Of a DNA stretch of 64,000 nt, positions 9,848-28,221 are shown piece after piece. Origin of the DNA: Kiloniella spongiae (lineage in GTDB: Bacteria > Pseudomonadota > Alphaproteobacteria > Kiloniellales > Kiloniellaceae); assembly GCF_001026905.1 (NCBI RefSeq), contig NZ_LAQL01000011.1, forward strand, positions 1 through 64,000, written 5' to 3'. Position 1 is the first letter of the stretch. Every line of letters starts with the position of its first letter. A program made the translations under genes and the position numbers. The notes beneath the pieces were generated by a model. The model saw nothing but the letters and a program-made list of their open reading frames with translations, was not told the origin of the DNA and searched no databases.

Positions 9848-12235
9848 CTACGACGCTATTTCATAGGGTGTTTGCAGCGCGTTATTTGCTGATCTGGCAA
9901 TTGATTCTGAATCTAGGCCAAAGTGACGGTAAAGATCCCCAATCGTGCCTGTTTGGCCAAAGTGCTCAACACCAAGAGGAATTGTGCTATGTCCGCCAAC
10001 AGCCCCGAGCCATGACAGCGTCGCCGGATGACCATCAATGACAGTCAGAACAACACAGTGCTTCGGCAAACGTGAGAATAATTGCTCAACATGACTTGTG
10101 GCCTGACGATTGCCGCGACTGCGATCTCGCTGTGCTGCGGTCCACCCCGCATTCAACCGATCCGCAGACGTAACAGCAAGAACGCCAACGTCACGATTGT
10201 GTTGTGACAGCTTACCTGCTGCATCAATAGCTTCATTAGCAACGGCACCCTGATACACAATCACCAGCTCACAGTTTGGTCCCGGCTTACGCATCCAATA
10301 GGCACCATCGATAACGCCCTGTTCAAAGTCAGCATTTGACCTTTGTCCCGGCTGTTCCAACGGGTTTGTCGTCAAGCGGAGATACACGGATCCTCCCGTT
10401 TCATCCCGAAGCCAAGTACGTTCGTTCGGCTCGCCTTCGCCATCGCGCTGCATATAGTCAAAAGCCCACCCCATGATGATTGCCAACTCATCCACAAAAG
10501 CGGGTTCGAAGGCTGCCAAACCATCCTGAGACATACCAATCAAAGGTGATCCAATGGATTGGTGTGCCCCACCTTCCGGTGCCAGTGTAATGCCAGACGG
10601 TGTGCCAACAATCATAAAGCGTGCATCCTGATAACAGGCATAGTTCAGGGCATCCAAACCTCTGGCAACAAAGGGATCATAAACCGTTCCGATTGGTAAC
10701 AGACGCTTCCCATAAAGAGAATGCGATAGGCCAGCAGCTCCAAGAAGCAGAAAAAGGTTCATTTCTGCAATACCAAGCTCAATATGCTGGCCTTCGGGCG
10801 TGAATTCCCATTTTGCTGTTGAAGGGATTTTTTCGTTAATAAAGGTGTCGCTCTGTTCACTACGGGCAAAGAGTTTTCGACGATTTACCCAAGGACCAAG
10901 GTTTGTTGTTCCTGTCACATCAGGCGATGTTGTTACAATACGCTGCGCAAGTTCAGAACTCCCCTTGGACAAGTCATCCAGGATTTTACCAAAGCCCATC
11001 TGGGTTGAAATTTCGCGATCACTTGCCAGCTCAATTTTTGGAACCTCGACAGTCGTATCAGAAAAGCGACGCATTCCCTTGGCAAAGAATGGTGTTTTAT
11101 CCAGAAATTTCTGTAGCCCCTCGACATCTGAAACAGCAGCGAACTTCTCCCATTCCTGTCCTTTCGGCACGCCCATGTGAGCTTGCCACTCGGCCATTTG
11201 TGGTTGGTTCATCAATCCGCCGTGATTGTCTTTGTGTCCGGCAATCGGTGTCCCCCATCCCTTGATGGTATAGGCTAGAAAGCAAACGGGTCGATCATGA
11301 TCGATGGCATCAAAAGTTTCCGCCATGGTTTGAACGCAGTTACCACCCAGATTTTCCATCAACTCGGCAAGCTCATCATCACTTCGCTTGTTGATCAGGG
11401 CCGTTACATCACCCTGATCCCCCAAAGCATCCATGAGGCGTTCGCGCCAAACTTTCCCCCCCATATAGGTCAAAGCGGAATAAAGTTGGTTCGGGCAACT
11501 ATCGATCCACTCTTTTAACTTCTCTCCGCCCGGTTCCTGAAATGCTGCACGTTGCAGGTGACCGTATTTCACCCGAACAACATCCCACCCAAAAGCATCA
11601 AAAATCTGCTCTATACGCTGAAACAAACCTTCACGTACAATGCCATCGAGAGACTGGCGATTATAATCAATAATCCACCAGGTATTACGCAGGTCATTTT
11701 TCCAGCCCTCTTGCAGGGTTTCGTAAATATTGCCCTCATCCAGTTCCGCATCACCGACAAGGGCAACCATACGCCCAAGAGGTAAATCTTTGCCCCATGA
11801 CTTCGCCTGAATGTAATCCTGAACCAAAGATGCAAAAGACGTTATCGCAACACCCAAACCAACAGAGCCCGTTGAAAAATCAACATCATCAATGTCTTTT
11901 GTTCGCGAAGGATAGGATTGAACGCCTTTGTACCCTCTGAAATTTTGCATCTTTTCCAGAGTTTGATTTCCCATCAGATATTGCATCGCGTGGAAGATCG
12001 GCGATGCATGAGGCTTCACAGCCACACGGTCTTCGGGTTTCAGAGCAGAGAAATAAAGCGCGGTCATGATTGACACCATAGAGGCCGAAGACGCTTGATG
12101 CCCGCCGACCTTGATACCATCTTCCTTGGGACGAAGATGATTGGCGTTGTGAATCATCCAATGCGAAAGCCACAGCAATCGTTGTTCAATTGTTTTCAAA
12201 TGATTTATTTTTATTTGGCTCGCTTTATCAGACAC
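9848..12235 (-). CDS. AceE-like homodimeric 2-oxoacid dehydrogenase E1 / transketolase-like enzyme
   Basis: A 795-residue thiamine-diphosphate enzyme laid out like the homodimeric pyruvate dehydrogenase E1 (AceE): GGHQASS at residues 44-50, cofactor motif GDAELDEG at 161-168 ending at Asn192 in DYNRQSLDG (compare AceE NCNLQRLDG), a pyrimidine-binding domain near 490-680 and a C-terminal domain. It is about 90 residues shorter than AceE. Alphaproteobacteria normally use a two-gene PdhA/PdhB E1, so this paralogue probably takes another substrate. It is divergent from an Lrp-type regulator; the same family pair exists in Pseudomonas putida as mdeB/mdeR, where MdeB is linked to 2-oxobutyrate from methionine breakdown. 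That function is inference here. Start GTG at 12235 after GGGAGGA. Confidence 0.8.
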   Translation of the reverse strand: MSDKASQIKINHLKTIEQRLLWLSHWMIHNANHLRPKEDGIKVGGHQASSASMVSIMTALYFSALKPEDRVAVKPHASPIFHAMQYLMGNQTLEKMQNFRGYKGVQSYPSRTKDIDDVDFSTGSVGLGVAITSFASLVQDYIQAKSWGKDLPLGRMVALVGDAELDEGNIYETLQEGWKNDLRNTWWIIDYNRQSLDGIVREGLFQRIEQIFDAFGWDVVRVKYGHLQRAAFQEPGGEKLKEWIDSCPNQLYSALTYMGGKVWRERLMDALGDQGDVTALINKRSDDELAELMENLGGNCVQTMAETFDAIDHDRPVCFLAYTIKGWGTPIAGHKDNHGGLMNQPQMAEWQAHMGVPKGQEWEKFAAVSDVEGLQKFLDKTPFFAKGMRRFSDTTVEVPKIELASDREISTQMGFGKILDDLSKGSSELAQRIVTTSPDVTGTTNLGPWVNRRKLFARSEQSDTFINEKIPSTAKWEFTPEGQHIELGIAEMNLFLLLGAAGLSHSLYGKRLLPIGTVYDPFVARGLDALNYACYQDARFMIVGTPSGITLAPEGGAHQSIGSPLIGMSQDGLAAFEPAFVDELAIIMGWAFDYMQRDGEGEPNERTWLRDETGGSVYLRLTTNPLEQPGQRSNADFEQGVIDGAYWMRKPGPNCELVIVYQGAVANEAIDAAGKLSQHNRDVGVLAVTSADRLNAGWTAAQRDRSRGNRQATSHVEQLFSRLPKHCVVLTVIDGHPATLSWLGAVGGHSTIPLGVEHFGQTGTIGDLYRHFGLDSESIARSANNALQTPYEIAS

Positions 12236-12428: not shown

Positions 12429-12896
12429 GTGGCTTCAGCTAACTTAGACGAAATAGACATTCGAATCTTACGCGAACTCAGAAATGATGGGCGGATTACT
12501 GCTGCGGAGCTCAGCCAACGTGTTGGTCTAAGCGTAACACCCGTTATCAGGCGTCTGAAGCACCTTGAGAACACTGGTATTATTACAGGCTATGTTGCTT
12601 TGATCGACGAAGTTGCCCTTGGCTATGAAATGTCGGTCTTTGTTTCCGTAAAGCTGGACAAACAGATAGATGCAGCCATCGAAAACTTCGAAAATGAAAT
12701 GTTGAAGTTCCCAGAGGTTGTCGATTGCTGGTTGATGACGGGACACAGAGACTATCTGTTACGTGTCGCTATAACTGGTTTGAAAGAGTTTGAAGCGCTT
12801 ATGATTGAAAGGCTCGTAAAGATCAAAGGTGTAGCCTCTATCGAATCATCTATTCCGATACGTCGGGTAAAGTCTGGGATCTCGAGAACGCCTTAA
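12429..12896 (+). CDS. Lrp/AsnC family transcriptional regulator
   Basis: A 155-residue regulator with the standard two parts: an N-terminal winged helix-turn-helix (LDEIDIRILREL to about residue 60, recognition helix in GLSVTPVIRRLKHLE) and a C-terminal RAM/AsnC ligand-binding domain (about 65-150, with the DCWLMTGHRDYLLRV strand). The family binds amino acids and forms octamers. Translation starts at GTG with AAGGA upstream. Its divergent position next to the AceE-like gene makes that gene its likely target; in the comparable P. putida locus the regulator is MdeR, responding to methionine. The effector here is unknown. Confidence 0.88.
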   Translation: MASANLDEIDIRILRELRNDGRITAAELSQRVGLSVTPVIRRLKHLENTGIITGYVALIDEVALGYEMSVFVSVKLDKQIDAAIENFENEMLKFPEVVDCWLMTGHRDYLLRVAITGLKEFEALMIERLVKIKGVASIESSIPIRRVKSGISRTP

Positions 12897-13208: not shown

Positions 13209-14471
13209 TCAAGAATAAATCGGGAAACGATCACAGATACTTGCAACCTGTTTCTTAGACTTTTGGATAACGGCCTCTTCTGCTTCAGTACCCGCGGCCA
13301 AAATCATTTGGCTGATCATTTGTCCCAATTCGGAAAATTCAGCTTCCCTCATACCCCGTGTTGTTGTCGCACTCACACCGAGACGCAGACCAACCCAATC
13401 AACCGGGCGTTTGCTATCAAAGGGGATCGGGTTTTTGTTTGACGTAATATCTGCACGCTCCAAAAGCCTTTCAATCGTTTGTCCTGTCTTGTTGTGTGCA
13501 CTGAGATCAAGCAAAACAATATGCGTATCTGTTCCACCAGATACGAGGTTAATCCCCTGCCCCAACAGCGTCTCGGCCAAGGTATGGGCGTTATTCTTTA
13601 TTTGTCTCGCATAGGACTTGAACTCTGGCTGCAACGCTTCGCCCAGACAAACCGCTTTTGCCGCGAGAACTTGCGTATGGATAGATCCTTGAACACCTGG
13701 GAAAACCGCAGCCTGTATCTTCTTTTCATAGTCACCAGACTTGGAAAGAATAATTCCTCCGCGAGGACCACGCAGTGTTTTTGTCGTTGTGCAGGTCACA
13801 AGATCTGCATGGGGAATTGGGCTTGGGTGAGCACCACCCGCAACCAGACCCGCGAAGTGCGCCATATCAACATGAAAGAGCGCATCCACCTTTTTAGCAA
13901 TGGCCGCCATCCGTTCAAAATCAATCTCCCTTGGATAGGCTGATCCCCCTGTGATCAACAGCTGGGGACGAATTTCCAATGCCTGAGCCTCCAACTTGTC
14001 ATAATCAATCTGCCCGGTTTCACGCTCTACGCCATAGTGATGTGCTTCGAACCAACGACCAGATAAATTAGCGCCCAAGCCATGACTTAAATGACCACCT
14101 GCGGCAAGGTCCAGACTCAAGACCTTGTCGCCGGGTTTTAAAAGCGTAAAGAAAACAGCCAAATTGGCCTGACTGCCGGAATGAGGCTGAACATTAGCGT
14201 AGGCGCAGTTAAACAGTTCTTTAGCCCGATCAATCGCAGCCTGTTCAACAACATCGACATAACGGCCACCGCCATGAAAGCGCGCACCGGGATAACCTTC
14301 TAGCGTTTTGTTCGTCATCTCATGCCCCAAGGCATCAAGAACCGCACGACTGACAATATTCTCAGATGCAATCAATTCAATCTGGTCTTGTTGACGGGCT
14401 TTTTCATTTCGCAAAGCCTCGGCAATTAACGGGTCAGTCGCTGAAACGGGGGCGTCAAAATACACTGACAT
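13209..14471 (-). CDS. Serine hydroxymethyltransferase family enzyme (divergent GlyA paralogue)
   Basis: A 420-residue PLP enzyme with the SHMT architecture: IELIASENIVS (31-41), NVQPHSGSQAN (93-103), DLAAGGHLSHG (121-131), DMAHFAGLVAGG (202-213) and the PLP-lysine Lys231. SHMT interconverts serine and glycine with tetrahydrofolate. Several normally invariant positions differ: the stretch before the lysine reads VTCTTTKTLRG where SHMT has TTTTHKTLRG, so the His next to the lysine is Thr230; the usual QGGPLMH reads QGSIHTQ; and NKYAEGYPG reads NKTLEGYPG. This suggests a specialised paralogue (for instance an alpha-methylserine or other beta-hydroxy amino acid enzyme) rather than the housekeeping GlyA. 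A GcvA-like regulator is divergent from it. Confidence 0.8.
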   Translation of the reverse strand: MSVYFDAPVSATDPLIAEALRNEKARQQDQIELIASENIVSRAVLDALGHEMTNKTLEGYPGARFHGGGRYVDVVEQAAIDRAKELFNCAYANVQPHSGSQANLAVFFTLLKPGDKVLSLDLAAGGHLSHGLGANLSGRWFEAHHYGVERETGQIDYDKLEAQALEIRPQLLITGGSAYPREIDFERMAAIAKKVDALFHVDMAHFAGLVAGGAHPSPIPHADLVTCTTTKTLRGPRGGIILSKSGDYEKKIQAAVFPGVQGSIHTQVLAAKAVCLGEALQPEFKSYARQIKNNAHTLAETLLGQGINLVSGGTDTHIVLLDLSAHNKTGQTIERLLERADITSNKNPIPFDSKRPVDWVGLRLGVSATTTRGMREAEFSELGQMISQMILAAGTEAEEAVIQKSKKQVASICDRFPIYS

Positions 14472-14690
14472 CTGAAATATTCCCTATAAAAGTATGCGCC
14501 AGCCCAAACCAATAGGCTTAAACATTATATGCAGGTTTAAACCCAAACGACATTCACAAATCAGCTTTATTCAAACTGGCGCAATTGAGTTACTGTCTCT
14601 TGAGGACCCAGTTATCATCACTCGAATTCAATGGACGTCGCAAATCAGTTTTGCTATATCTTAGGCCTAGAAAAACTGAGTCTAATTATT
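14472..14690. promoter_or_regulatory. Divergent promoter region between SHMT-like and LysR genes
   Basis: A 219-base spacer between the minus-strand SHMT-like gene and the plus-strand LysR gene. LysR proteins typically bind here to control the divergent neighbour. No T-N11-A box is distinctive enough to place. Confidence 0.4.
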
Positions 14691-15596
14691 ATGGCTATTG
14701 CTCCTCCACGCCCGCAAATTCCTCCCCTGAATTCTCTCCGTGCCTTTGAAGCAGCAGCGCGACTTGGCGGCTTTTCGATGGCATCTGACGAGCTTTGTGT
14801 GACCCCCGGTGCCGTGGCTCAACATGTAAAATCACTGGAAGCATGGGTTGGCGCCGAGCTTTTCATTCGAAGGTCACAAGGTGTGGAGTTAACTGAATTG
14901 GGGCAAAACGTCCTTTCAGAGTTCAGCGCTGCTTTTGATCAACTCGGTCTCGCCGTCCAAACACTGCGATCACAAGCAACACCCAAACATATTCGTATTG
15001 CCGCTCTCCCCAGTATTGCCCAACTCTGGCTCTCTCCCAAATTGCCTTCTGTCCGGAAAGCTGCGCCGGAACTAACAATCTCTGTCACAGCACTGGAGAA
15101 ACAACCTAATCTACAACGTGAGCCTTTTGATTTATGTATTTTCTATCAAGATAACGTGAGCAACGATAAAGATGTCTTTTCCACTACATATGAAGTCTGT
15201 AAGGATATCATCTTTCCCGTCTGTTCCCCCCTAGTTGCCAAACGCTTGAATAACTATGAAGATCTAGACAAAGAACTTTGTCTTCATGACGCATCCTGGG
15301 CAGAAGACTGGTCTAAGTGGGTTTCCTATGCTTTTCCAAATGGCTTCCTGAACACCGATGGCTCTGTTTTTTCACTCTATGGTCTCGCCATAGAAGAAGC
15401 CCGTAATGGCGCAGGCATTATGATGGGGCACAAGGCACTGGTAGAAAACCATCTTAAAGACGGTAGCCTGGTCGTACCATTTGACGCCCCCTTAGCACTT
15501 GAGCGTGCTTTAGTCATCACAACGGCGAAATCGGCAAAGGATAATCCTTATCTTGGTTTGATTATCCAGACCCTACTGGAAAACAAATCAAAATAA
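14691..15596 (+). CDS. LysR family regulator, GcvA-like
   Basis: A 301-residue LysR-type regulator. The N-terminal part PPLNSLRAFEAAARLGGFSMASDELCVTPGAVAQHVKSLE is the winged helix-turn-helix with the sequence style of the GcvA/TrpI group, followed by a periplasmic-binding-like effector domain from about residue 90. GcvA controls the glycine cleavage system in enterics, and a glycine/serine-linked role would fit the divergent SHMT-like gene, but this is only inference. The frame is open 20 codons further upstream; the start chosen at 14691 begins just before the conserved domain, although its ribosome site is weak. A terminator overlaps its stop codon. Confidence 0.85.
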   Translation: MAIAPPRPQIPPLNSLRAFEAAARLGGFSMASDELCVTPGAVAQHVKSLEAWVGAELFIRRSQGVELTELGQNVLSEFSAAFDQLGLAVQTLRSQATPKHIRIAALPSIAQLWLSPKLPSVRKAAPELTISVTALEKQPNLQREPFDLCIFYQDNVSNDKDVFSTTYEVCKDIIFPVCSPLVAKRLNNYEDLDKELCLHDASWAEDWSKWVSYAFPNGFLNTDGSVFSLYGLAIEEARNGAGIMMGHKALVENHLKDGSLVVPFDAPLALERALVITTAKSAKDNPYLGLIIQTLLENKSK

Positions 15597-17635: not shown

Positions 17636-17660
17636 AGAGAATAGCTTTTATTCATTTCAA

Positions 17661-17695
17661 GAAGGCAGAAAACGTAATGTTTTCTGCCTTCTTTT
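17661..17695 (+). terminator. Rho-independent terminator of phoX
   Basis: A perfect 13-bp stem (17661-17673 with 17679-17691; GAAGGCAGAAAAC and its complement), a five-base loop and a TTTT tail, 25 bases after the stop codon. Confidence 0.92.
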
Positions 17696-17727: not shown

Positions 17728-17758
17728 TTGACTAACAGTGTCATTTATTCTTAATAAT
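17728..17758 (+). promoter_or_regulatory. Promoter of the PLP enzyme/sugar ABC operon
   Basis: TTGACT at 17728-17733 matches the -35 hexamer at five of six positions, and AATAAT at 17753-17758 matches the -10 hexamer at five of six, with a 19-base spacer that is slightly long. The palindromic operator follows directly at 17760. Confidence 0.5.
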
Positions 17759-17759: not shown

Positions 17760-17774
17760 AGACGTCTGACGTCT
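17760..17774. promoter_or_regulatory. Palindromic operator, probably for the operon's FadR-type regulator
   Basis: AGACGTC-T-GACGTCT is a perfect 15-bp palindrome around a single central base. It lies one base after the -10 hexamer and 23 bases before the start codon, where a bound repressor would block transcription. Its odd-length, GTC/GAC-centred form suits FadR-subfamily GntR regulators, and such a regulator is encoded as the sixth gene of the operon. Confidence 0.6.
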
Positions 17775-17796: not shown

Positions 17797-19002
17797 ATGG
17801 TTGGAATAGATAAAAAGCGCCAAATTCTTACACAGGATGAAGCATTTGAATATGGTTCAATTGTTCCCCCGATCTATCAGACCTCAACATTTACCTTTAC
17901 TGATTATGATTCGCTAGAAGACAGATATTCAGGCAAAAGTAATGCCGATATCTATTCCAGAACAGAAAACCCGACCTCGCGTATCCTTGAAGAAAAACTT
18001 GCACAGTTAGAGGGGGGAGAAGCAGCAGCTGTATTCGGTAGCGGTATGGCTGCCATTTCCAGTACAGTGCTCGCATTGGTGAAATCAGGCGACAAAGTAG
18101 TATCCGTACAACACGCCTATTCTGATGCCTACCGTCTTTTCGAAGTCTTACTCAAGCAGTTCAACGTTTCAGTAGAATATGTTGATTGCTCTGACCTAGA
18201 AGCACTTGATGTTGCCCTGTGCGGTGCCAGATTACTTTTCCTGGAAAGCCCATCCAGCTTTACCTTTGAAACACATGACATAAGTGCAGTTGCCCAACTG
18301 GCCAAGAAACATAAGGTCATAACCCTTATCGACAATAGCTTTGCAACACCCCTTTACCAAAACCCGATTGAACACGGCATCGATCTCGTGGTTCATTCTC
18401 TCTCGAAATACCTCTCGGGTCACAGTGATGTGGTTGCTGGTTGCACGATTGGTTCAGAACAACTGATTAAAAATATCAGAGACACAAGCCTATCCCTTCT
18501 TGGCGGCAAACTGTCCGCAATGGAATCATCACTGATACTACGTGGTATGAGAACTTTAGAATTGCGACTGAAAGCCCACAGTGAAGCGGCTGATTATATC
18601 TTAAAGCACTTAGGAAAAGATCACCGTATCGCACAGATTAACTTCCCCGGTTATTCATCAAAAATCCCTGATAGCCTGACAGGAACCGGCGGACTTTTCT
18701 CTATTCAACTCGCCCAAGGTGCCAATATCAAAGCCTTTTGCGATGCTCTCGACGTATTTCGCCTTGGGGTTAGCTGGGGAGGTTATGAAAGCCTTGTATT
18801 ACCCGTAGAGGTCGCAGGACGCATAGATTCAGGTCCCAACGCAATTAACGATTTCGGCGTACATAGAAATACCGTGCGCCTCTTTGCCGGGCTGGAAGGA
18901 AATGACCTGTTATTACAGGACATTCTTACAGGCCTCGCGGCCGCATTTTCTTCAGATCAACAACATATTTCTGATCAGAATAATGTGGCCATAAACAACT
19001 AA
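17797..19002 (+). CDS. Cys/Met metabolism PLP-dependent enzyme (trans-sulfuration family)
   Basis: A 401-residue fold-type I PLP enzyme of the cystathionine gamma-synthase / beta-lyase / methionine gamma-lyase group. Visible are YSRTENPT (53-60), FGSGMAAIS (80-88), the ring-stacking Tyr108, LESPSSFTFETHD (149-161, closest in style to cystathionine beta-lyases) and the PLP lysine Lys204 in HSLSKYLSGHSD. The segment after the tyrosine reads Y-S-D, where methionine gamma-lyase has Y-G-C, so the lyase-specific cysteine is absent. It cleaves or forms a C-S (or C-O) bond at the beta or gamma carbon of an amino acid; the substrate is unknown. Unusually, it leads a sugar-type ABC operon, 27 bases before the binding-protein gene. 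Confidence 0.85.
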   Translation: MVGIDKKRQILTQDEAFEYGSIVPPIYQTSTFTFTDYDSLEDRYSGKSNADIYSRTENPTSRILEEKLAQLEGGEAAAVFGSGMAAISSTVLALVKSGDKVVSVQHAYSDAYRLFEVLLKQFNVSVEYVDCSDLEALDVALCGARLLFLESPSSFTFETHDISAVAQLAKKHKVITLIDNSFATPLYQNPIEHGIDLVVHSLSKYLSGHSDVVAGCTIGSEQLIKNIRDTSLSLLGGKLSAMESSLILRGMRTLELRLKAHSEAADYILKHLGKDHRIAQINFPGYSSKIPDSLTGTGGLFSIQLAQGANIKAFCDALDVFRLGVSWGGYESLVLPVEVAGRIDSGPNAINDFGVHRNTVRLFAGLEGNDLLLQDILTGLAAAFSSDQQHISDQNNVAINN

Positions 19003-19029
19003 AAAAAATAATCAATCTGGGAGGACGTA

Positions 19030-20289
19030 ATGAAGTTCAAAAAATATCTATCAGGAAGTGTTGCTGCCCTGTGCCTAGCGGCAACATGTTTCGGAACAGC
19101 TGCTTTGGCTGATGGAAAAAAAGCTGAAGTGATCCATTGGTGGACATCCGCAAGTGAAGCTGCTGCAATCAAGGTCTTTGCCGATCGCTTTCAAGAAGCC
19201 GGCGGCGAATGGGTTGATAACGGTATCGCTGGTGATGCTGCCAAACAAACTTTCACCAACAGATTACTGGGTGGTAATCCGCCACAAGTAGGGCAGTTCA
19301 ACGTTACCCGTGAATTCGAAGAAATCGTTGACGCAGGGTTACTCAACAATCTGAATGCCGAAGCCGAAGCAGGCAACTGGGCCGAAGTTCTTCCCGGCAT
19401 TATCAACAACGTTATCAAACGCGATGGCAACTACTATGCGGTTCCCGTTAATATTCACGGGTCAAACTGGCTGTGGTATAACAAGGCCGCTTTTGAAAAA
19501 GCAGGCGCAAAGCCCCCTACCGACTGGGACAGCTTCTTCGAAGCAGTTGACAAGCTGAAAGCCGATGGCGCGGTTCCTCTGGCTGTCGGTGGTGAAGCAT
19601 GGCAGGAAAGACTGACCTTTAACGCCGTTCTGCTATCTGTTGCTGGTAGAGATTTTTACCTCAAGCTATTTAATGATCGTGATGCAGAGTTAATCAAGTC
19701 AGAAAAGATGGGCGAAGTCATCGACGTCTATACCCGTCTGCGGGATCTAGTAAGAGAAACCGACAAAGGATCTCCGGGACGTAGCTGGAACGAAACCACC
19801 AGCATGGTTATTACCGGCAAAGCTGCGATGCAGATCATGGGCGATTGGGCCAAGGGTGAGTTTATTTCTGCCGGTCAGAAAGCTGGTGTGGACTATGGCT
19901 GTATTCCAGCCGTTATCCCGCAATCACCTTACATGATCTCTGGTGATGTCTTCGTTTTCCCGAAAACAGGAAACGAGGCTGATCGCGAAACACAGTCTTT
20001 GATGGTCAACGTAATGCTGGACAAGGAAACCCAGGTTGCCTTCAATAACGTAAAGGGTTCAATCCCTGTACGTTCAGATGTTGATCCAAGCAAGCTGGAT
20101 CCCTGTGGGGCACAAGCGATCAAATTAACATCAAGTGACGCAACCCATGTTGGGTCAACAGGTATGTATATCACGCCTGATCTCGCAGGCGCTATTCAAG
20201 ATATTTATACTGAATACTGGAACGCAAGTGACATGACCAAAGAAGATATGGTTGCACGTCTTGTCGAAACTTTCGAAACAGTAAACTAA
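19030..20289 (+). CDS. Carbohydrate ABC transporter substrate-binding protein
   Basis: A 419-residue periplasmic binding protein of family 1 (MalE-like), close in style to the glucose/mannose-binding GtsA proteins: after a Sec signal peptide (cleavage after about residue 27, ALA-DG) the mature protein opens with KAEVIHWWTSASEAAAIKVF. Further marks are GNPPQVGQFN and IHGSNWLWYNKAAFEKAG, and two cysteines (YGCIP, DPCGAQ) in the C-terminal half that could form a disulfide. It captures a sugar or sugar-like ligand for the two permeases and ATPase downstream. A hairpin in the following spacer may stabilise its mRNA. The ligand cannot be named; the leading PLP enzyme hints at an amino-acid conjugate. 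Confidence 0.88.
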   Translation: MKFKKYLSGSVAALCLAATCFGTAALADGKKAEVIHWWTSASEAAAIKVFADRFQEAGGEWVDNGIAGDAAKQTFTNRLLGGNPPQVGQFNVTREFEEIVDAGLLNNLNAEAEAGNWAEVLPGIINNVIKRDGNYYAVPVNIHGSNWLWYNKAAFEKAGAKPPTDWDSFFEAVDKLKADGAVPLAVGGEAWQERLTFNAVLLSVAGRDFYLKLFNDRDAELIKSEKMGEVIDVYTRLRDLVRETDKGSPGRSWNETTSMVITGKAAMQIMGDWAKGEFISAGQKAGVDYGCIPAVIPQSPYMISGDVFVFPKTGNEADRETQSLMVNVMLDKETQVAFNNVKGSIPVRSDVDPSKLDPCGAQAIKLTSSDATHVGSTGMYITPDLAGAIQDIYTEYWNASDMTKEDMVARLVETFETVN

Positions 20290-20299
20290 CAGATAATCT

Positions 20300-20365
20300 G
20301 AACCCGGTATTATATTTGATTGAATGATAACAAGTTTGATTAACAAAATATCGGGTTCCTTTTAT
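20300..20365 (+). other. Intercistronic hairpin after the binding-protein gene
   Basis: Arms at 20300-20311 (GAACCCGGTATT) and 20347-20358 (AATATCGGGTTC) pair at 12 positions with one non-standard pair, enclosing 35 bases, then CCTTTTATT. It may act as a partial terminator or as a 3' mRNA stabiliser that keeps the binding protein more abundant than the permeases, as known for malE-type operons. Confidence 0.55.
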
Positions 20366-20385
20366 TCCCCCAACCAGGCGAGAAA

Positions 20386-21270
20386 ATGAAATACCCTTTG
20401 ATATCATCTCGGTTGGCTGCACGTTTGACGATTTTACCGTTTGTTGTCATTGCTTTGACAATTTTTGTCGGTTGCGTCCTCTGGTCTGTACAGCTTTCTT
20501 TTACCAGCTCCAAGCTGCTCCCGAATTCTGACTTTGTTGGCTTGGATCAATACATCCGTCTGTTTAATACGACGCGGTGGATTGTTTCCCTGAAGAACAT
20601 GGTGATCTTTGGCGTTCTCTTTACGTCCGGGTCCCTGATCTTAGGGTTTTTGCTTGCTGTCTTCATTGATCAGAAAGTACGGGCTGAGTCCTTTTTCCGA
20701 ACTGTCTTTCTCTATCCCCATGCTTTGTCCTTTGTTGTCACAGGACTTGCCTGGCAATGGTTTTTAAATCCTGCACTGGGTTTACAGGAAATGGTGCGCG
20801 TTGCAGGTTGGGAAAGCTTTACTTTTGACTGGCTTGTTAATCGGGATTTTGCCATTTACACCGTGGTTTTTGCAGCTATTTGGCAGGCATCCGGTTTGGT
20901 AATGGCCTTAATGCTTGCTGGCCTGCGAGGTGTTGACCCGGAAATCTGGAAAGCAACAAAAATAGACGGCGTTCCGACATGGCGCGTTTACTTGCACGTC
21001 ATTATCCCTATCCTCGGCCCTGTCATCTTTACCTCCGTCATTTTATTATCTCTGTCAGTTGTTAAGGGGTATGACATCGTTGTTGCCATGACAGGTGGTG
21101 GCCCGGGTATTGCCACTGAAGTTCCGGCAAAATTTGTACTCGACCATCTTTTACAGCGTGCCAATATCGGCCTCGCAATGGCTGGCGCAACAGTGATGTT
21201 GTTGACCGTGATTGCTGCCCTAGCCCCTTGGCTTTACGTCAAACACGTCAAAAAGGGAGCTAATGGGTAA
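20386..21270 (+). CDS. Sugar ABC transporter permease, MalF/UgpA type
   Basis: A 294-residue inner-membrane permease with six predicted helices. The EAA loop that docks to the ATPase is seen as EIWKATKIDGVPTWRVYLHVIIPILGP near residues 186-212. N-terminal RLAARLTILPFVVIAL forms the first helix. It pairs with the next gene, two bases downstream, to form the translocation pore. Substrate specificity is that of the binding protein and is unknown. Confidence 0.9.
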   Translation: MKYPLISSRLAARLTILPFVVIALTIFVGCVLWSVQLSFTSSKLLPNSDFVGLDQYIRLFNTTRWIVSLKNMVIFGVLFTSGSLILGFLLAVFIDQKVRAESFFRTVFLYPHALSFVVTGLAWQWFLNPALGLQEMVRVAGWESFTFDWLVNRDFAIYTVVFAAIWQASGLVMALMLAGLRGVDPEIWKATKIDGVPTWRVYLHVIIPILGPVIFTSVILLSLSVVKGYDIVVAMTGGGPGIATEVPAKFVLDHLLQRANIGLAMAGATVMLLTVIAALAPWLYVKHVKKGANG

Positions 21271-21272
21271 TT

Positions 21273-22172
21273 ATGACAATGACACAAAGTACATCAACAC
21301 CCTCTCTTAAAAAACCTAGAACAATAATATCCAAAGAACGGATTGCGATTTATCTCTTTCTAATCATCTGTTCTCTTTTCTTTCTGCTACCACTTTACAT
21401 AGTTCTGATTACATCGCTCAAAACCATGCCCGAGATCCGTATGGGCAATATCATGAGTTGGCCGGAAACATGGAACACAGATGCCTGGGTCAAAGCCTGG
21501 TCCACGGCGTGTACTGGTCTGCAGTGCGAAGGGGTAAGTGTCGGCTTCTGGAATTCTATCAAAATTCTAATCCCCAGCCTCTTCGTATCTATTCTGTCCG
21601 GCGCGATCTGCGGGTACGTTCTTTCATACTGGCGATTTAAAGGCGCAGAACTATTCTTTGGGATTATTCTATTCGGAGCCTTTATTCCCTATCAGGCCCT
21701 CATCTATCCGATGATTAAGATTTTCGCGACTTTTGGCCTCTATGGAACTCTTCCGGGGATTATTCTCGTCCATACAATTTTTGGGCTGCCCATCATGACG
21801 TTGATATTCAGAAATTATTATTCGACATTACCGTCAGAGATTTTCAAAGCAGCTCGTGTTGATGGTGCAGGTTTCTTTGGCGTGTTCTTTCATGTTTTGT
21901 TGCCCATGTCGACGCCGATCCTGATTGTCGCCGTCATCCTACAGGTCACAGGTATCTGGAATGATTTCCTGTTGGGATTGATTTTCGGCGGGCGTGAAAA
22001 CATGCCCATGACCGTTCAACTAAATAATATTGTCAATACGGCGCGCGGTGCCAAGGAATATAACGTCAACATGGCGGCAACGTTCCTGACCGCTATGGTT
22101 CCTCTGTTGGTGTACTTTTTTTCCGGGCGTTGGTTCGTTCGCGGAATTGCAGCTGGTGCTGTTAAAGGATAA
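21273..22172 (+). CDS. Sugar ABC transporter permease, MalG/UgpE type
   Basis: A 299-residue permease of the MalG group. It has an N-terminal cytoplasmic stretch, six hydrophobic segments and the EAA motif EIFKAARVDGAGFFGVFFHVLLPMSTP around residues 190-215. The loop containing TACTGLQCEG between the first two helices resembles glucose/mannose transporter permeases. It starts two bases after the preceding permease and ends three bases before the ATPase gene, so all are translated from one message. Confidence 0.9.
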   Translation: MTMTQSTSTPSLKKPRTIISKERIAIYLFLIICSLFFLLPLYIVLITSLKTMPEIRMGNIMSWPETWNTDAWVKAWSTACTGLQCEGVSVGFWNSIKILIPSLFVSILSGAICGYVLSYWRFKGAELFFGIILFGAFIPYQALIYPMIKIFATFGLYGTLPGIILVHTIFGLPIMTLIFRNYYSTLPSEIFKAARVDGAGFFGVFFHVLLPMSTPILIVAVILQVTGIWNDFLLGLIFGGRENMPMTVQLNNIVNTARGAKEYNVNMAATFLTAMVPLLVYFFSGRWFVRGIAAGAVKG

Positions 22173-22175
22173 GAG

Positions 22176-23267
22176 ATGCAAAACAATACAAATACAGCAC
22201 ATGTAAGTGCAAAAGATCTCAGTGTCAGCTTTGGCAAGGTCGATGTTCTTAAAAAACTAAACCTTGAAATCAACAAGGGGGAATTTCTTGTTCTTCTTGG
22301 TGCATCCGGTTGCGGGAAATCCACACTACTCAATACTTTTGCGGGCCTTCAGGAAGCAACAGACGGCGATGTCTGGATTGATGATCGGAACGTTACGTTT
22401 ATGGAACCAAAAGACCGTGGCATCGCGATGGTATTCCAGTCCTACGCTCTCTACCCTAAGATGACTGTTCGTGGTAATTTATCTTTCGGTTTGAAAATGA
22501 ACAAAACGCCGAAAGACAAAATTAATGAACTGGTCGCTTATGCCGCGCGGGTTCTTCAAATAGAAAACCTGTTGGACAGAAAACCCGGTGAGCTTTCGGG
22601 CGGGCAAAGGCAAAGGGTTGCAATTGGCCGCGCACTAGTACGAAAAGCCGATGTCTTTCTGTTTGATGAACCATTGTCAAATCTGGATGCAAAGCTGCGC
22701 TCAGAGCTTCGTGTAGAGTTAAAGCGCCTACACGAAGAACTTGGCGCAACCATGATTTACGTAACGCATGATCAAGTTGAAGCCTTGACCCTTGCCGATC
22801 GTATTGCCGTTATGAAAGCAGGTGTCATCCAACAACTTGGAACGCCGGATCAAATCTACAAAGAACCGGCAACACGCTATGTCGCCCAGTTTGTCGGCAT
22901 GCCAAGCATGAACTTCGTTACCGGAAAAATAATAAACACTTCTGGTGGCACATACTTCGAAAATGGCGATATCAAATTTTCCATTGATGAGTATATCTCG
23001 AAACAACCGCTGAGAGACGGTCAGACAGTTGAACTCGGTATACGCCCGGAACATGTGGTTTTGGATACTGATGGTTCAACTACCTTTAATGTTGATATCA
23101 TAGAAAAGCTAGGATCAGAGCTTATTGTCTGGGGTAAAGTTGGATCGACGTCCTTAACTCTGCGCGCTGAACCGGAATCTTCTGTTGCTTCAAAAGAAGT
23201 GCGAAAGATCAGCTTTAAGATTTCTGGATTGAATTTTTTCGACCCGGAAACAGGATTGCGTTTATAA
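22176..23267 (+). CDS. Sugar ABC transporter ATP-binding protein, MalK/UgpC type
   Basis: A 363-residue ATPase of the CUT1 class. It shows Walker [10 protein letters not shown] (about residues 43-51), Q-loop in VFQSYALYP, signature [15 protein letters not shown], Walker [17 protein letters not shown] and the H-loop YVTHDQVEA, followed by a C-terminal TOBE/OB domain from about residue 235 ([20 protein letters not shown]). It powers the importer formed with the two permeases immediately upstream. MalK-type ATPases are often shared between importers, so it could serve others. Confidence 0.92.
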
Positions 23268-23324
23268 AAGCTGTTATAGTCTCGTATTATATCTGAATAA
23301 ATAAGATAAAATTGGAATTTTAAT

Positions 23325-24023
23325 ATGCTGGGTCTAGCCCCTATTTCCACAACGAATAAATCGGATATGATTGCTGAGCAGTTGATTCATTTCATCAATC
23401 TGAACAACTACAAGGCAGGCGATCAACTGCCATCCGAACGTGAATTGATGGAAGCTTTGGGCGTTGGACGCTCTTCTGTTCGTGAAGCCGTCAGAAAGCT
23501 CGAAGCCAAAAATATTATCCAAATCAGAAGAGGTGCAGGAACCTTTCTTTGTCGTCAGGTAAGTAAAGACGAAGTTCTGGTACCTATTAACATCGGACCA
23601 GAGCGGGATAGCCTTATTTTTGCGCTTGATATCCGGCGCGGGCTTGAAGCTGAAGCGGCCATGATTGCAGCAAGCAGAGGCACAGATGAAGCAATTGCCT
23701 TCATTGAAAAATGCCTTATAGCCATGGAACATGCCCATCAGACAAATGGCAGTGCGCGGGACGAAGACGCTGTCTTTCATCGTTCTATTTATCAGGCCAC
23801 CGGCAATCCGCTTTTTGAGCAGTTAATTTCTGGTATGCGCGGACCGTTTCAAAGCTTCTTCAGCAAGCCTTTTGATCGACAGGACTTTGGACAAAGATCT
23901 TTTCCCTTACACCGGGAACTATACGAAGCAATCGCTAAACGAGACCCCGAGCTAAGCAGAATAACAACGCTAAAGCTCCTGGATTGCGTTGAGAGAGATA
24001 TTCTAGAAATGGCTCCTGCATAA
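23325..24023 (+). CDS. GntR family regulator, FadR subfamily
   Basis: A 232-residue repressor-type protein. Residues about 10-75 are the GntR winged helix (YKAGDQLPSERELMEALGVGRSSVREAVRKLEAKNIIQIRRGAGTF), the rest an all-helical FCD ligand domain with the metal-binding pattern seen in FadR-subfamily members (DEDAVFHRSIYQATGN, and FPLHRELYEAI near 200). It is the sixth gene of the PLP enzyme/ABC operon and is the natural candidate to bind the palindrome at 17760-17774, giving substrate-induced expression with autoregulation. Confidence 0.88.
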   Translation: MLGLAPISTTNKSDMIAEQLIHFINLNNYKAGDQLPSERELMEALGVGRSSVREAVRKLEAKNIIQIRRGAGTFLCRQVSKDEVLVPINIGPERDSLIFALDIRRGLEAEAAMIAASRGTDEAIAFIEKCLIAMEHAHQTNGSARDEDAVFHRSIYQATGNPLFEQLISGMRGPFQSFFSKPFDRQDFGQRSFPLHRELYEAIAKRDPELSRITTLKLLDCVERDILEMAPA

Positions 24024-24056
24024 GTATATTTAAAATCTAACCATTATTTTTGATAA

Positions 24057-24596
24057 ATGAACATGCTTAAAAAATCACTCGCGACATGGGACATGAAATC
24101 TGCCAAGGATATTCGTGCGATCTATACCCAATACGTGAATACACCAAGCTTTGAACAGGATTTAATGGATGTTCTGCTGGACAGAGAACTTCAATCTGGC
24201 TCCACATGGATTTTAAAGAACCACCTCTGTAATAAGGGTTCTTTTACCCCGCTCTATTCAAAAACCATACTCGATCATCTAGAGCTATTTGATCAGTGGG
24301 AAAGTCAGCTCCATATCCTTCAATCTTTTGAGCATTTGACCATAACCGCCGCACAAAAATTTACGGTAGAGAATTTCATTCGTCTTTGCTTGAGAAGCGA
24401 AAGGAAATTAATTCGTGCCTGGGGGTATCACGGATTTCATTTCTTCAGTAAGAAATTTCCTGAATATAAGACGGAAGCAGAGACTATAATGCAAAAAGCT
24501 CTGTTCGATGAAGCAGCATCAGTAAAGGCGCGAATTAGAAATTTACTCAGGGAATCCCCCCCTCAAAAAAAATCAACTAAACTTGAGAAAATCTGA
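24057..24596 (+). CDS. Hypothetical helical (HEAT-like) protein
   Basis: A 179-residue protein I do not recognise as a named family. It is soluble, has no signal peptide, and is almost wholly helical; repeated Leu/Trp/Phe-rich helix pairs (for example FEQDLMDVLLDREL, FIRLCLRSERKLIRAWGYHGFHFF, ASVKARIRNLLRES) look like an alpha-solenoid of HEAT or ARM type. It follows the FadR-type regulator by 33 bases on the same strand and may be the seventh gene of the operon or separate. Its last 20 bases overlap the convergent histidine kinase gene. No function can be given. Confidence 0.6.
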   Translation: MNMLKKSLATWDMKSAKDIRAIYTQYVNTPSFEQDLMDVLLDRELQSGSTWILKNHLCNKGSFTPLYSKTILDHLELFDQWESQLHILQSFEHLTITAAQKFTVENFIRLCLRSERKLIRAWGYHGFHFFSKKFPEYKTEAETIMQKALFDEAASVKARIRNLLRESPPQKKSTKLEKI

Positions 24597-25962
24597 GTCT
24601 GAAACAAGCCCCCTGCCCCTGTGTCGCTTCCTTATACTCTATAAATCCACCATGACGTTCCATAATTTCCCTGACAATTGGCAAGCCCAGACCACAGCCT
24701 TCATCGTCCCGTGTTTCAGAGCGATAAAAACGTTCAAAAATTTTATCGCGCTCGTCCTTAGAAACGCCGGGACCATCATCTTCAACCTCAATCATAGCAT
24801 CTTCCAATTCCTGTTTTATCCGCACCGTAACCGTCGAATTTTCAGGACAATAATGTAATGCATTTTCAATTAAATTCTTCAATGCCTCTTTGATAAGCTC
24901 CTCATTCCCGACAACCGAATTAATTTGGTCTTCTTGCTCAAATCCCAAGTCAATTCGCAACGCAACCGCCTGAGGAACATAAACTCGCGTCACCTCCTCA
25001 CTCAGTAGCTTTAAATCTATTATTTCCGATTGGAAGTTCTCCTCTTCCTGATGTGTTCTCGCCAAACTGAGAAGCTGATTAATCAAGCGTGATGTTTGTT
25101 TCGTACTCCGATTTAAATGCTCTAGTCGTTTCGTGATTTTCACCGGATCTTTTTCATCTTGCGCCAACTCAGCCTGAGTTTGGATCGCCGCAAGTGGTGT
25201 TCTGAGTTGATGTGCTGCGTTGGATGTAAAACGTTGCATCGCCTCAATAGAAGCGCCCAGTCTCTTCATCAGGTCATTAATTGCCTCAATCAAATGACGT
25301 ACTTCTTGCGGAACTTCGTGCTCAATAGGCCTTAGATCCGAAGGTGTTCGTCTATTTAATGCTGCTTCCAACCTTACAAGCGGCTTAAGTCCCCATCCGA
25401 TCCCGATCCATAACACAATTCCCGCAACCAATATCAACACCAGTTGACGAACAATGGCAGCTGTCATCATTTCATTGATCAGATTATTGCGCCCCTCAAT
25501 CGTTTCGGCGACCATCACCGTAAAACGTGCTGACAAACGCCCCCCGGAAATGTGACGGGATATCACGCCAACCCGAATTGCATCACCGCGATAATCAGCA
25601 TCAAAGAAAAGCGGTGCGCCATTTTTAGGAATTTCCTTATCATCCACGATGGGCAAATCATCATAGCCTGTAATAAAGCTATTTCCCGGGCCAACAACCT
25701 GATAAAATACGCGATCTTGCGCGGCCGAAGTTAACATTTCAAGCGCAACATAAGGCACATCAACTTCTAGCTGTTCTCCAACAACAACAACTCGTTCTGC
25801 AATCGCCAGTGCAGACCCCAGCAATACCCGGTCATAGGCCTCGTTGGCTGCTTTACTTGCACTGGAGCGAACTTCGAAAAGCATCAGAGCTGAGATAATC
25901 GCAAGCGCACCTAGCAACCATAGTAACAAACGACGGCGAAGGGACTTGCGTTGCCACCTCAT
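24577..25962 (-). CDS. Sensor histidine kinase, TctE-like
   Basis: A 461-residue membrane histidine kinase. A first helix (about 10-27), a periplasmic sensor region to about residue 175, a second helix, a HAMP-like segment, the phospho-acceptor H-box NAAHQLRTPLAAIQTQ near residue 250, and the HATPase domain with N-box LIENALHYCPE and G-box DDGPGVSKDERDKIFERF, then GCGLGLPIV. The N-terminal arrangement matches the 2CSK_N/TctE group. The start codon overlaps the stop of the response regulator gene by one base (TAATG). With that partner and the divergent binding protein it probably controls the TctCBA transporter genes a few kb away. Confidence 0.9.
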   Translation of the reverse strand: MRWQRKSLRRRLLLWLLGALAIISALMLFEVRSSASKAANEAYDRVLLGSALAIAERVVVVGEQLEVDVPYVALEMLTSAAQDRVFYQVVGPGNSFITGYDDLPIVDDKEIPKNGAPLFFDADYRGDAIRVGVISRHISGGRLSARFTVMVAETIEGRNNLINEMMTAAIVRQLVLILVAGIVLWIGIGWGLKPLVRLEAALNRRTPSDLRPIEHEVPQEVRHLIEAINDLMKRLGASIEAMQRFTSNAAHQLRTPLAAIQTQAELAQDEKDPVKITKRLEHLNRSTKQTSRLINQLLSLARTHQEEENFQSEIIDLKLLSEEVTRVYVPQAVALRIDLGFEQEDQINSVVGNEELIKEALKNLIENALHYCPENSTVTVRIKQELEDAMIEVEDDGPGVSKDERDKIFERFYRSETRDDEGCGLGLPIVREIMERHGGFIEYKEATQGQGACFRLRFSQV

Positions 25963-26630
25963 TATTTTTCCAACAGATACCCAAGACCGCGAACAGTCTT
26001 GATATTGATATCGGCCGCCGCCAGCCTCTTTCTCAAACGGCTAATATAAAGCTCAACAGCATTGGGACTCATATCCTGATCAAAATTGGCAAGACTGTCT
26101 GCAATCTGTTCTTTGCTGACAACCTGTCCGGCCCGGCTGATCAAAAGCTCAAGCAAGCAAAATTCACGGCGTGGCAAGTCCAGAGGCTCACCCATCATCG
26201 AAACCCGGCGCGCCACACTGTCAAAGATCAGCTCACCGATGACAATTTCGGGTGATTTCAAGCCGCTTTGTCGCCGGAGAAGTGCTCGCACTCTTGCTTC
26301 AAGCTCAACCAGATCAAAAGGTTTGGTCAGGTAATCATCCGCCCCAAGGTCAAGACCTTTGACCCGATCATTTAGTGTATCCCGCGCAGTCAGAATTAGG
26401 ACCTGAGCTTTACCACCATTCTGACGATATCGTTTTAAGATCTCCAGCCCGTCATAACCCGGCAGGTTTAGATCCATTACGACCAGGTTAAATTCCTGGG
26501 TTCGTAAAATATTGTCTGCTTCGGTACCGTCACCAACAACATCCACAGCCATTTCCATGCGGGTCAGCGCACTGGATATTCCATCAGCCAAAGCGGCATT
26601 ATCTTCAACGACTAGTATTCTCATGCCCAA
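25962..26630 (-). CDS. Response regulator, OmpR/TctD-like
   Basis: A 222-residue two-domain regulator: receiver domain (1-120) with acidic pocket VEDNAAL, the phospho-acceptor Asp in VVMDLNLPGYDG, and Lys in DDYLTKPFDL; then an OmpR-type winged helix (about 130-220) with the recognition helix SPNAVELYISRLRKRL. It is cotranscribed with the TctE-like kinase. TctD in Salmonella activates tctCBA for tricarboxylate uptake; here the ligand may be a different carboxylate. Confidence 0.92.
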   Translation of the reverse strand: MGMRILVVEDNAALADGISSALTRMEMAVDVVGDGTEADNILRTQEFNLVVMDLNLPGYDGLEILKRYRQNGGKAQVLILTARDTLNDRVKGLDLGADDYLTKPFDLVELEARVRALLRRQSGLKSPEIVIGELIFDSVARRVSMMGEPLDLPRREFCLLELLISRAGQVVSKEQIADSLANFDQDMSPNAVELYISRLRKRLAAADINIKTVRGLGYLLEK

Positions 26631-26852
26631 AAGACTAACTTTGTTCCAAGGGTTTTGAAAAGCCCGGGAATTAAAGAAAATCTATTTTCCTTCCTATGAC
26701 AGGTTCTCGACAGCTTTGAACCATAATGTGAAGAAAAAAACAAAAACAGTAATTGGTTCCTAAGAAAGCAATAATGGACCAAGTATAAATCAGGGGCTCG
26801 GACTATTAAGACACGATCAACAACGCTACAACATAAGCTTGGTTTATTTTGT

Positions 26853-27935
26853 ATGCCATTGCTTCAGGCTTTGTATTTGGTAATCATAATTGCCATCACC
26901 CAATCATATGTACATTCAGCCAAGGCCAAAGCTTTTGATTTTCCCGCAATTTCGGGCAAGGAAAACAATGTCATTACGATTTATAGCGTTACAGATGTTG
27001 ATATTTTCCAAGGCACAATTGCTGACTTTCAAGAACTCTTTCCCGACATCTCGATCGTTTATCATGACCTGCAATCTCTTGAACTCTATGAACGCATCCA
27101 AGATGAAACCTTGAACAGTGATGTAACCGCAGATATTGCCATCAGTTCGGCCATGGATCTGCAAATGAAGCTCGCCAACGATGGCTTTGCACAACGCGTG
27201 GAAATATCGACAGCACAGGATATGCCGTCGTGGTCACAATGGCGGAACGAAGTCTTTGGCTTTACTTCTGAACCCGCAGTCACGATATACAACAAGGAAT
27301 ATTTTAAAGACCAACCGCTCCCCAAAACCCGTTTGGAAATGCAGCGCTTCCTCGCCGAAAGGCCTTCCGATCTTTTCGGTCGTATTGCCACGTACGATAT
27401 AGAACGGAGTGGTGTTGGCTTTCTGTTTATGGGGGTTGATTCAGAACGATACAAAGGAATCTGGAATCTTATAAAAACCTTTGGCGCAAATGGCGTTAAG
27501 CTATCCACGAGCTCTACGGCAATTATCAATAACGTCAACAGTGGCAAATATGTTATCGGATACAATGTTCTAGGTTCATACGCCCTTGCAAGATTAGACA
27601 GCTCCCCGAACCTCGGAATACTCTACCCGGAAGACTATACAACGGTTCTATCTCGCCTTGCTATTATTCCCAAGGCTGCAAAATCGAAAGAAGCTGGTAA
27701 GCTTTTTCTAGAGTATCTTCTCTCAGAGCGAGGACAACAATTGCTCACGACCAGCGCGAAGCTTAATGCTGTGCATCCTGGAATAAAAAGTAGCGGCCCA
27801 GAAGAAATTCTCGCAGCTCAAGCCCGTAGTAATTTACAACCAATTAAAGTTGGTCCTGGCCTGTTAGTTTATCTTGATCAGGTAAAAAGACGGAAAACGA
27901 TAAACCAATGGAACAAGTCATTGCGTGGCGAATAA
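26853..27935 (+). CDS. Extracellular solute-binding protein linked to the two-component system
   Basis: A 360-residue exported binding protein of the family 1 / ferric-iron and polyamine type, with an N-terminal hydrophobic signal (about residues 1-25, ending HSAKAKA). The mature part begins with NVITIYSVTDVDIFQGTIADFQELFPDISIVYHD, typical of FbpA-like proteins. No permease or ATPase follows. It is divergent from the response regulator with a 222-base gap. Binding proteins of this kind next to TctDE-type systems are thought to present a ligand to the sensor kinase; here that is inference from position. A free-standing transporter component is the alternative. Confidence 0.75.
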   Translation: MPLLQALYLVIIIAITQSYVHSAKAKAFDFPAISGKENNVITIYSVTDVDIFQGTIADFQELFPDISIVYHDLQSLELYERIQDETLNSDVTADIAISSAMDLQMKLANDGFAQRVEISTAQDMPSWSQWRNEVFGFTSEPAVTIYNKEYFKDQPLPKTRLEMQRFLAERPSDLFGRIATYDIERSGVGFLFMGVDSERYKGIWNLIKTFGANGVKLSTSSTAIINNVNSGKYVIGYNVLGSYALARLDSSPNLGILYPEDYTTVLSRLAIIPKAAKSKEAGKLFLEYLLSERGQQLLTTSAKLNAVHPGIKSSGPEEILAAQARSNLQPIKVGPGLLVYLDQVKRRKTINQWNKSLRGE

Positions 27936-28221
27936 TAAATAACATTAAACAAACACTTTATACATCTGTATTAATTGATAATTTTATTTAATAAAAATTA
28001 TTTTTCAAAACGACAGGGTAGTGACAGCTTTATCCCCTAGCCTACAGGTATTGAATGATAGGCCGCAGCTAAAAAAATAATAAAAGCGGTTAGGGAGACA
28101 GTAAAAAAACAGTTCAGACAATCTTCTGATCTGATAATTCCAATATGGACACCTCCCCCATCCGACTTCGTTCGGCGGTTTGTTATTCATCGAATTAACA
28201 ATCATACTCGGAGGCCAATTC
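27936..28221. other. Spacer upstream of tctC-like gene
   Basis: A 286-base AT-rich region that must carry the promoter of the TTT transporter operon and probably the TctD-like binding site. A small stem is seen in CCGACTTCGTTCGG around 28160-28173 and a strong ribosome site (CGGAGG) at the end. I cannot place a promoter with confidence. Confidence 0.4.

Follow-up and report, generated by a model that had tools for sequence, protein, structure and literature searches.

A candidate uptake module for a sugar-like amino acid, with a VbsL-clade PLP enzyme and an exchangeable importer, in Kiloniella spongiae

The stretch of DNA analyzed in this study (hereafter the window) comprises 64,000 nucleotides of contig NZ_LAQL01000011.1 from Kiloniella spongiae, and at 17797-24596 it carries a run of seven genes that begins with a pyridoxal phosphate (PLP)-dependent enzyme and continues with a sugar-type ATP-binding cassette (ABC) importer and a FadR-type regulator. 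The reading preferred here, tentatively, is that this locus is the Kiloniella version of a widespread, self-contained uptake module in which a FadR-type regulator accompanies a PLP epimerase of the VbsL clade and a CUT1 importer for a sugar-like amino acid. Computation identified the genes, their conserved linkage, an operator core shared with related loci, exchange of the importer and the lack of glucose-specific pocket residues in its binding protein. The features of the locus are as follows.

17760..17774, + strand: AGACGTCTGACGTCT, fully palindromic around the core GTCTGAC and located 22 bases ahead of the PLP gene; proposed FadR operator
17797..19002, + strand: PLP enzyme of the VbsL/PRK05968 clade, probably an amino-acid epimerase/racemase, possibly a lyase (Pfam, NCBIfam, trees)
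19030..20289, + strand: substrate-binding protein of the glucose-binding family, in the group without K92, N301 and H379 (Pfam, alignment)
20386..21270, + strand: permease 1 (CUT1; PF00528), 48% identical to the L040 permease and 26% to the L036 module permease
21273..22172, + strand: permease 2 (CUT1; PF00528), 47% to L040 and 25% to L036
22176..23267, + strand: ATPase of the UgpC/MalK type (NF008653, 432.6 bits against a cut-off of 432)
23325..24023, + strand: FadR/GntR-type regulator with an FCD domain (Pfam; alignment to related regulators)
24057..24596, + strand: mainly helical protein without a known family (no Pfam or NCBIfam match), its membership in the operon uncertain

All seven open reading frames (ORFs) were verified on a single strand with successive gaps of 27, 96, 2, 3, 57 and 33 bases, and the order and families assigned to them in an earlier note on this DNA were confirmed by the ORF coordinates and by Pfam. 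The PLP ORF belongs to PF01053 (Cys_Met_Meta_PP), with 316.7 bits against a gathering score of 27. The importer has the full composition of a CUT1 sugar-type ABC system, namely a binding protein (SBP_bac_1, 97.4 bits), two BPD_transp_1 permeases (48.9 and 64.5 bits) and a MalK/UgpC-type ATPase (ABC_tran, 118.1 bits; OB_MalK, 41.8 bits), and the regulator carries the GntR (71 bits, cut-off 27) and FCD (81.8 bits, cut-off 24.3) domains of the FadR/GntR family. The same note had remarked on the lack of a glycoside hydrolase, a kinase and a sugar dehydrogenase, and indeed none of the seven ORFs matched a glycoside hydrolase, sugar kinase or dehydrogenase family in Pfam or NCBIfam. No further dedicated enzyme is present in the locus. 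The last ORF matched nothing in NCBIfam or in Pfam, Pfam at E 0.1 included, and it is kept in K. majae at 80% identity. Its assignment to a known fold was dropped because the predicted model (pLDDT 49.7, low confidence) was too poor for a structure search.

The linkage of the PLP enzyme to an importer was assessed in the 80 best loci from a scan of named genomes, which are the closest relatives of the PLP gene and not an unbiased sample. The widespread modules found in this way have a binding protein that differs from that of the window and is labeled SBP2 here. The regulator, the PLP gene, SBP2, both permeases and the ATPase lay within 6.5 kb in 66 of the 80 loci; five of the other 14 were partial (L045, which is of the window type, L066, L084, L111 and L120) and nine were without such an importer. 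Additionally, an even draw of 385 alphaproteobacterial genomes gave the PLP enzyme at 1e-85 in six genomes, one of them the window genome, and SBP2 at 1e-85 in five. The five non-window genomes with the PLP enzyme were the same five that had SBP2, and the genes were always adjacent, which held in both directions; the chance of this coincidence is 1.5e-11 when genomes are taken as independent and kinship is left uncorrected. A draw of 398 genomes across the phylum returned 26 PLP rows at 1e-75, of which 25 were outside the window genome: 20 adjoined SBP2 (many from one genus), three lay in siderophore clusters, one adjoined a glucose-family importer (L158) and one was elsewhere. The same six genes were also found on annotated plasmids of R. 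etli, R. leguminosarum, S. meliloti and Pantoea; in R. etli CFN42 the PLP homologue is RHE_RS25295 and the binding protein RHE_RS25300. The PLP enzyme was matched at 1e-80 by 337 plasmid records, and among 40 listed matches it was left without annotation, called a 'PLP-dependent transferase' or, once, a 'cystathionine gamma-synthase'. The pairing of the PLP enzyme with a CUT1 importer is not due to chance. Because the coupling is conserved far outside the genus, the importer and the enzyme probably act on the same solute, and there is good support for joint action of the importer, the enzyme and the regulator. The earlier note had proposed uptake of a sugar or polyol conjugate of a cysteine- or homoserine-type amino acid; a solute with both a sugar-like part and an amino-acid part follows fairly from the conserved coupling.

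Closer to the window, a genome of the same genus (G045, evidently K. majae) carries the operon at 92-99% identity from the PLP gene to the regulator, and the K. majae record L045 has the arrangement seen there. The operon was found in two of nine Kiloniella genomes, namely that of the window and G045; among the seven without it, one is only 77% complete. In the order as a whole, a PLP match at 1e-60 occurs in 10 of 61 genomes, and the 92% match is confined, apart from the window genome, to G045.

Other surroundings of the PLP gene were also seen. In L062, L074, L115, L121 and L124 a gene of the PLP clade is followed by an NhaC-type Na+/H+ antiporter-family gene in place of the ABC importer, and the neighbors of L115, judged by eye, include sugar-kinase-like and epimerase-like genes. 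In Rhizobium rhizogenes (L063, L066) the PLP gene lies between a different GntR-type regulator and a class II aldolase/adducin gene.

The palindrome at 17760-17774 places a sequence site with the GTCWGAC core ahead of the PLP transcript, as expected for a FadR regulator of these modules. Of 78 related loci, 56 have GTCTGAC or GTCAGAC ahead of the regulator, compared to 1 of 78 coding control stretches, and 49 have GTCAGACCA, compared to no controls. When 121 genomes of one family were searched for the 15-mer GATGTCAGACCAATT, 20 had it, in one copy each and every copy just before FadR-PLP, whereas the reversed-pattern control was in none of the 121. AGACGTCTGACGTCT is the sole exact copy in the window genome, where two-mismatch sites elsewhere numbered three, equal to the three of the control. 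Shuffling the 161-base gap upstream of the PLP gene 5000 times produced the core in 45 cases and the core with 7-base arms in none. Palindrome counts with 5-base half-sites gave nothing above the control, but pattern and k-mer counts did exceed it. Since the operator is found singly and before its own operon, the window FadR looks like a single-operon regulator and, as far as these sites indicate, seems to control just its own operon.

The importer is the part of the module that has changed. Both window permeases share 25-26% identity with the SBP2-module permeases of G045 (L036) and 47-48% with their counterparts in L040, a glucose-type operon of the same genome as the window whose neighbors are sugar-catabolic genes by eye. 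Regulators from related PLP loci share 38-51% identity with the window FadR, counting those for which it was the closer of two reference sequences. With regulators this much alike but permeases of a different lineage, the enzyme and the regulator persist and the importer has been swapped. A second pairing of the enzyme with a glucose-family importer comes from another class (L158), where the PLP gene runs divergently to a LysR gene and that importer.

Among solved structures, 4r2b and Pseudomonas-type chains come closest to the window binding protein. Twelve glucose-contacting residues of the glucose-binding protein are itemized in PMC7927077, and of these the window protein keeps eight (W35, W36, E41, Q90, W250, W270, D303 and K339), has N for K92 and S for N301, and has lost H379 (T or a gap, depending on the alignment); G68 is ambiguous, as it falls in or beside an alignment gap. 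Among 50 aligned family members, some of them near-copies, 23 have H379, and all 23 also have N301 and all except 4r2b have K92. The remaining 27, the window protein included, are without H379, and K92 and N301 are absent from every one. The window protein therefore does not have the full residue set of a plain glucose-binding protein (GltB), and the glucose-type operon L040 of the same genome retains all three. The kept tryptophans and charged residues favor a ring-like sugar moiety, whereas the loss of K92, N301 and H379 disfavors plain glucose, uptake of which was rejected on these pocket residues.

The PLP enzyme falls in the VbsL/PRK05968 clade in trees that included lyase paralogues as outsiders, with support of 100/99 for sets of 49 and 19 rows, and again 100/99 for 53 rows against 9iz5 and L160. 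The PRK05968 model itself (NF004627, 'hypothetical protein') was missed by 4.2 bits (503.8 against a cut-off of 508), and clade membership is therefore claimed from the tree alone. An alanine/glutamate racemase model (NF041088) is the second-best for the window enzyme, with a score that fails its cut-off (354.9 against 629), and it ranks second for all six clade enzymes scanned. Y108, D179, K204 and R361 are invariant in 28 clade sequences and also occur in 3vk2; they are presumably the PLP lysine, the stacking tyrosine and their partners, roles we take from methionine gamma-lyase. Asp and Arg are found in the clade at positions 110 and 113 of the window enzyme, where the row for methionine gamma-lyase shows His (the chain being a C116H mutant) and Ala.

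In two trees the VbsL rows are nested in a set that also holds module enzymes and is supported at 98/83 and 96/91. The VbsL L161, which shares 97% identity with the copy in R. leguminosarum 248, reaches 661 bits on PRK05968. On the 55-row tree, the grouping of eight siderophore-type rows in one clade could not be rejected (p-AU 0.102; L197, whose gene order by eye is GNAT-MATE-PLP, was left out of that group), and a siderophore-type clade of three rows was supported at 96/88 on the 28-row tree. The siderophore contexts contain an ornithine/lysine monooxygenase, a GNAT acyltransferase, a MATE exporter and the PLP gene (some judged by eye), a combination that matches the vbsLDAGSO gene set as given in PMC6421345. 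VbsL is named as an acyl-hydroxyornithine epimerase in PMC12971057, which cites Heemstra et al. (2009). Mainly because this characterized enzyme nests among the module enzymes, epimerization is preferred over lyase chemistry, and the preference is a moderate one. Since the closest studied relative of the enzyme inverts an amino acid and the enzyme is kept beside different importers, the cargo is probably an unusual amino-acid compound.

If the locus is an uptake module of this kind, the imported solute would combine a free alpha-amino-acid group with a moiety resembling a sugar or polyol, and FadR would repress the operon until this solute, or a product of it, lifts the repression. The PLP enzyme would form an external aldimine with the solute and remove the alpha-proton, which would most likely be returned from the opposite face, as in an epimerase or racemase. 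A D-configured or otherwise unusable form could in this way be converted to one that ordinary enzymes degrade.

Several observations weigh against this reading. The operator core is missing from 22 of the 78 upstream stretches, including those of Rahnella (L117) and Pantoea (L134). Positions 201 and 330 (window enzyme numbering) are A and P in VbsL-type rows, whereas module enzymes have S and H, Y or F there. L005, a cystathionine beta-lyase of the same genome (530 bits against a cut-off of 365.9), and TM1270 (9iz5), titled 'multifunctional' in the PDB, both branch near the base of the clade in an order that the trees do not settle, which brings elimination chemistry close by. Structure comparison places methionine gamma-lyases slightly above 9iz5 (Z 46.5 against 44.6), and it confirms the fold family without separating lyase from racemase. 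To our knowledge, no activity is known for any module enzyme. Finally, an E1 dehydrogenase gene, divergent from a regulator gene, lies 5.5 kb from the PLP gene, and its proximity fits a 2-oxo-acid product and hence a lyase.

9848..12235, - strand: AceE-like E1 dehydrogenase, possible functional partner (TIGR00759, 177.4 bits against a cut-off of 859.9)
12429..12896, + strand: Lrp/AsnC-type regulator, divergent from the E1 gene (109.3 bits to Lrp against a cut-off of 233)

It is a real possibility, though not the expected outcome, that the PLP enzyme is a lyase that eliminates the side chain of an imported sugar-like or glycosylated amino acid to give pyruvate or 2-oxobutyrate, ammonia and a leaving group, with the nearby E1 perhaps oxidizing the 2-oxo acid. 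The majority of the solved relatives are lyases or synthases, and most of the methionine gamma-lyase active-site positions compared are kept, the differing ones being C116, which is D110 in the window enzyme, T210, which is S203, and K240/D241. In L065 a homologue of the E1 (72%) directly follows the ATPase gene of the module, and another (63%) stands beside the module in L091 with the same divergent Lrp pair. In Pseudomonas, mdeB and mdeR adjoin methionine gamma-lyase and are an E1/Lrp-type pair acting on 2-oxobutyrate, and we take the window E1 to be similar to MdeB. It is because of this E1/Lrp lead that a lyase is given the weight it has here. However, the E1 link comes from 2 of 79 loci; by a rough estimate that assumes one copy per 5-Mb genome, position by chance would account for up to about 0.25. 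The window enzyme also scores far below the cut-offs of methionine gamma-lyase (TIGR01328, 281.5 against 549.7) and cystathionine beta-lyase (TIGR01324, 248.1 against 365.9), and no NCBIfam model, the listed synthases included, reaches its cut-off for this enzyme. Additionally, methionine gamma-lyase and cystathionine beta-lyase are each encoded elsewhere in the genome by a gene above cut-off, and the characterized member within the clade is an epimerase. On these same grounds the label of a sulfur amino acid C-S lyase, which the earlier note had attached to the enzyme, is not supported. Canavanine gamma-lyase, a PLP enzyme known from rhizobia, was set aside by description alone, being placed in an operon with a tRNA-editing gene in PMC10018355.

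It is unlikely that a sugar or glucoside is what the importer carries while the PLP enzyme works on something else, the two being joined by regulation only. Relatives of the window binding protein at 42-46% identity do sit in ordinary sugar operons, and those of the group without H379 are found in sugar-oxidation or glucosidase operons, next to isomerase/epimerase and Gfo/Idh/MocA genes (L164, L170), a GH3 gene (L166) or an enolase-superfamily gene (L165). A PLP gene was within 1.5 kb in none of the 29 fetched loci of closer binding-protein relatives, the weaker L158 protein having fallen outside the cut-off. However, importers from at least two lineages occur together with the PLP gene, and in 66 of the 80 loci the unit is just the regulator, the PLP gene and the importer. 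How the PLP gene fares in the operons of relatives, a question raised in the earlier note, thus depends on which gene is followed: it mostly stays with an importer among its own relatives and is missing from the 29 loci of binding-protein relatives. Scavenging of siderophore fragments, in which D-configured acyl-hydroxyornithine-like pieces would be imported and turned to the L form as VbsL in reverse, is highly improbable, since the regulator is of the FadR type, the binding proteins are of the sugar type and none of the seven genes is siderophore-related, even though VbsL-type enzymes nest among the module enzymes and a module enzyme from Phyllobacterium shares 60% identity with a VbsL.

The region upstream of the operon contains two further features in the gap that follows the phoX operon.

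17659..17693, no strand assigned: inverted repeat with 15-bp arms and a 5-base loop, possibly the phoX terminator (a role suggested by its position)
17728..17756, + strand: weak promoter-like TTGACT-17-TTAATA, spotted by eye

The inverted repeat was not among the predictions of a terminator scan, and a consensus promoter scan predicted none in this gap. Simple run-on of the phoX operon into the PLP gene was rejected on account of the 161-base gap, which holds the inverted repeat and the proposed operator. In G045, moreover, three other ORFs lie between phoX and the PLP gene. These three ORFs (L035 2701-6661) are absent from the window, and two of them are weakly similar to a histidine kinase or response regulator. 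Elsewhere in the window, 13209-15596 holds one of the genome's two serine hydroxymethyltransferase genes (481.8 bits, the other scoring 558), which is divergent from a LysR gene of the GcvA-like type. Judged by eye, a two-component system and a tripartite tricarboxylate transporter set (24577-32347) are convergent with the end of the operon, and a nitrous-oxide reductase (nos) cluster follows at 32515-41562.

Because the PLP enzyme mostly travels with its own importer and an apparently one-target regulator, its substrate is directly testable. The identity of that substrate would name a nutrient of many soil, plant and marine bacteria, and it could explain the recruitment of VbsL into siderophore synthesis. 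It is possible, though less likely than not, that the locus represents a new uptake module, in which a glycosylated or sugar-like alpha-amino acid of unusual configuration is imported and epimerized at its alpha-carbon by a VbsL-clade enzyme, and in which the importer is exchangeable while the enzyme, the regulator and the operator core persist. Literature searches confined to open-licence PMC papers found no description of a FadR-PLP-importer module. The Bacillus importer FrlONM-FrlP carries a sugar-amino-acid conjugate, and the idea of conjugate import is therefore less unprecedented than the earlier note held.

Among known systems, FrlONM-FrlP is described as a type I importer for fructosevaline under a local repressor, FrlR, and the likeness, by description only, is that of an amino-acid-sugar conjugate carrier with its own repressor. 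FrlONM-FrlP operates with a deglycase and a kinase and not with a PLP enzyme, whereas the window locus has neither deglycase nor kinase. The binding protein is of the same lineage as that of the Pseudomonas glucose importer GltBFGK (GtsABCD; 4r2b), but it differs from it at K92, N301 and H379, and no glucose-catabolic gene is among the seven; the permeases were compared only with L040. TM1270, of the alanine-glutamate racemase group, is the nearest solved relative of the PLP enzyme by sequence after methionine gamma-lyases and has VSWG-x-x-E in common with it, although it is 37% identical and has W where the window enzyme has D110. VbsL of the R. leguminosarum vicibactin system belongs to the same PLP clade and PRK05968 model, is 45% identical to the window enzyme and shares Y-x-D-x-[YF]-R. 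However, VbsL lies in a biosynthetic cluster with a nonribosomal peptide synthetase (NRPS), a monooxygenase, GNAT and MATE, with no importer or FadR adjoining, and the seven window genes, phoX and the LysR gene include no NRPS, monooxygenase, GNAT or MATE. A further likeness is to the FadR-PLP-SBP2-permease-permease-UgpC modules of rhizobia, Rahnella, Pantoea and others, in which the PLP enzyme is 41-51% and the regulator 38-51% identical to those of the window. These modules differ in that their importer is of another CUT1 lineage and their regulator comes first, whereas the window regulator follows the ATPase.

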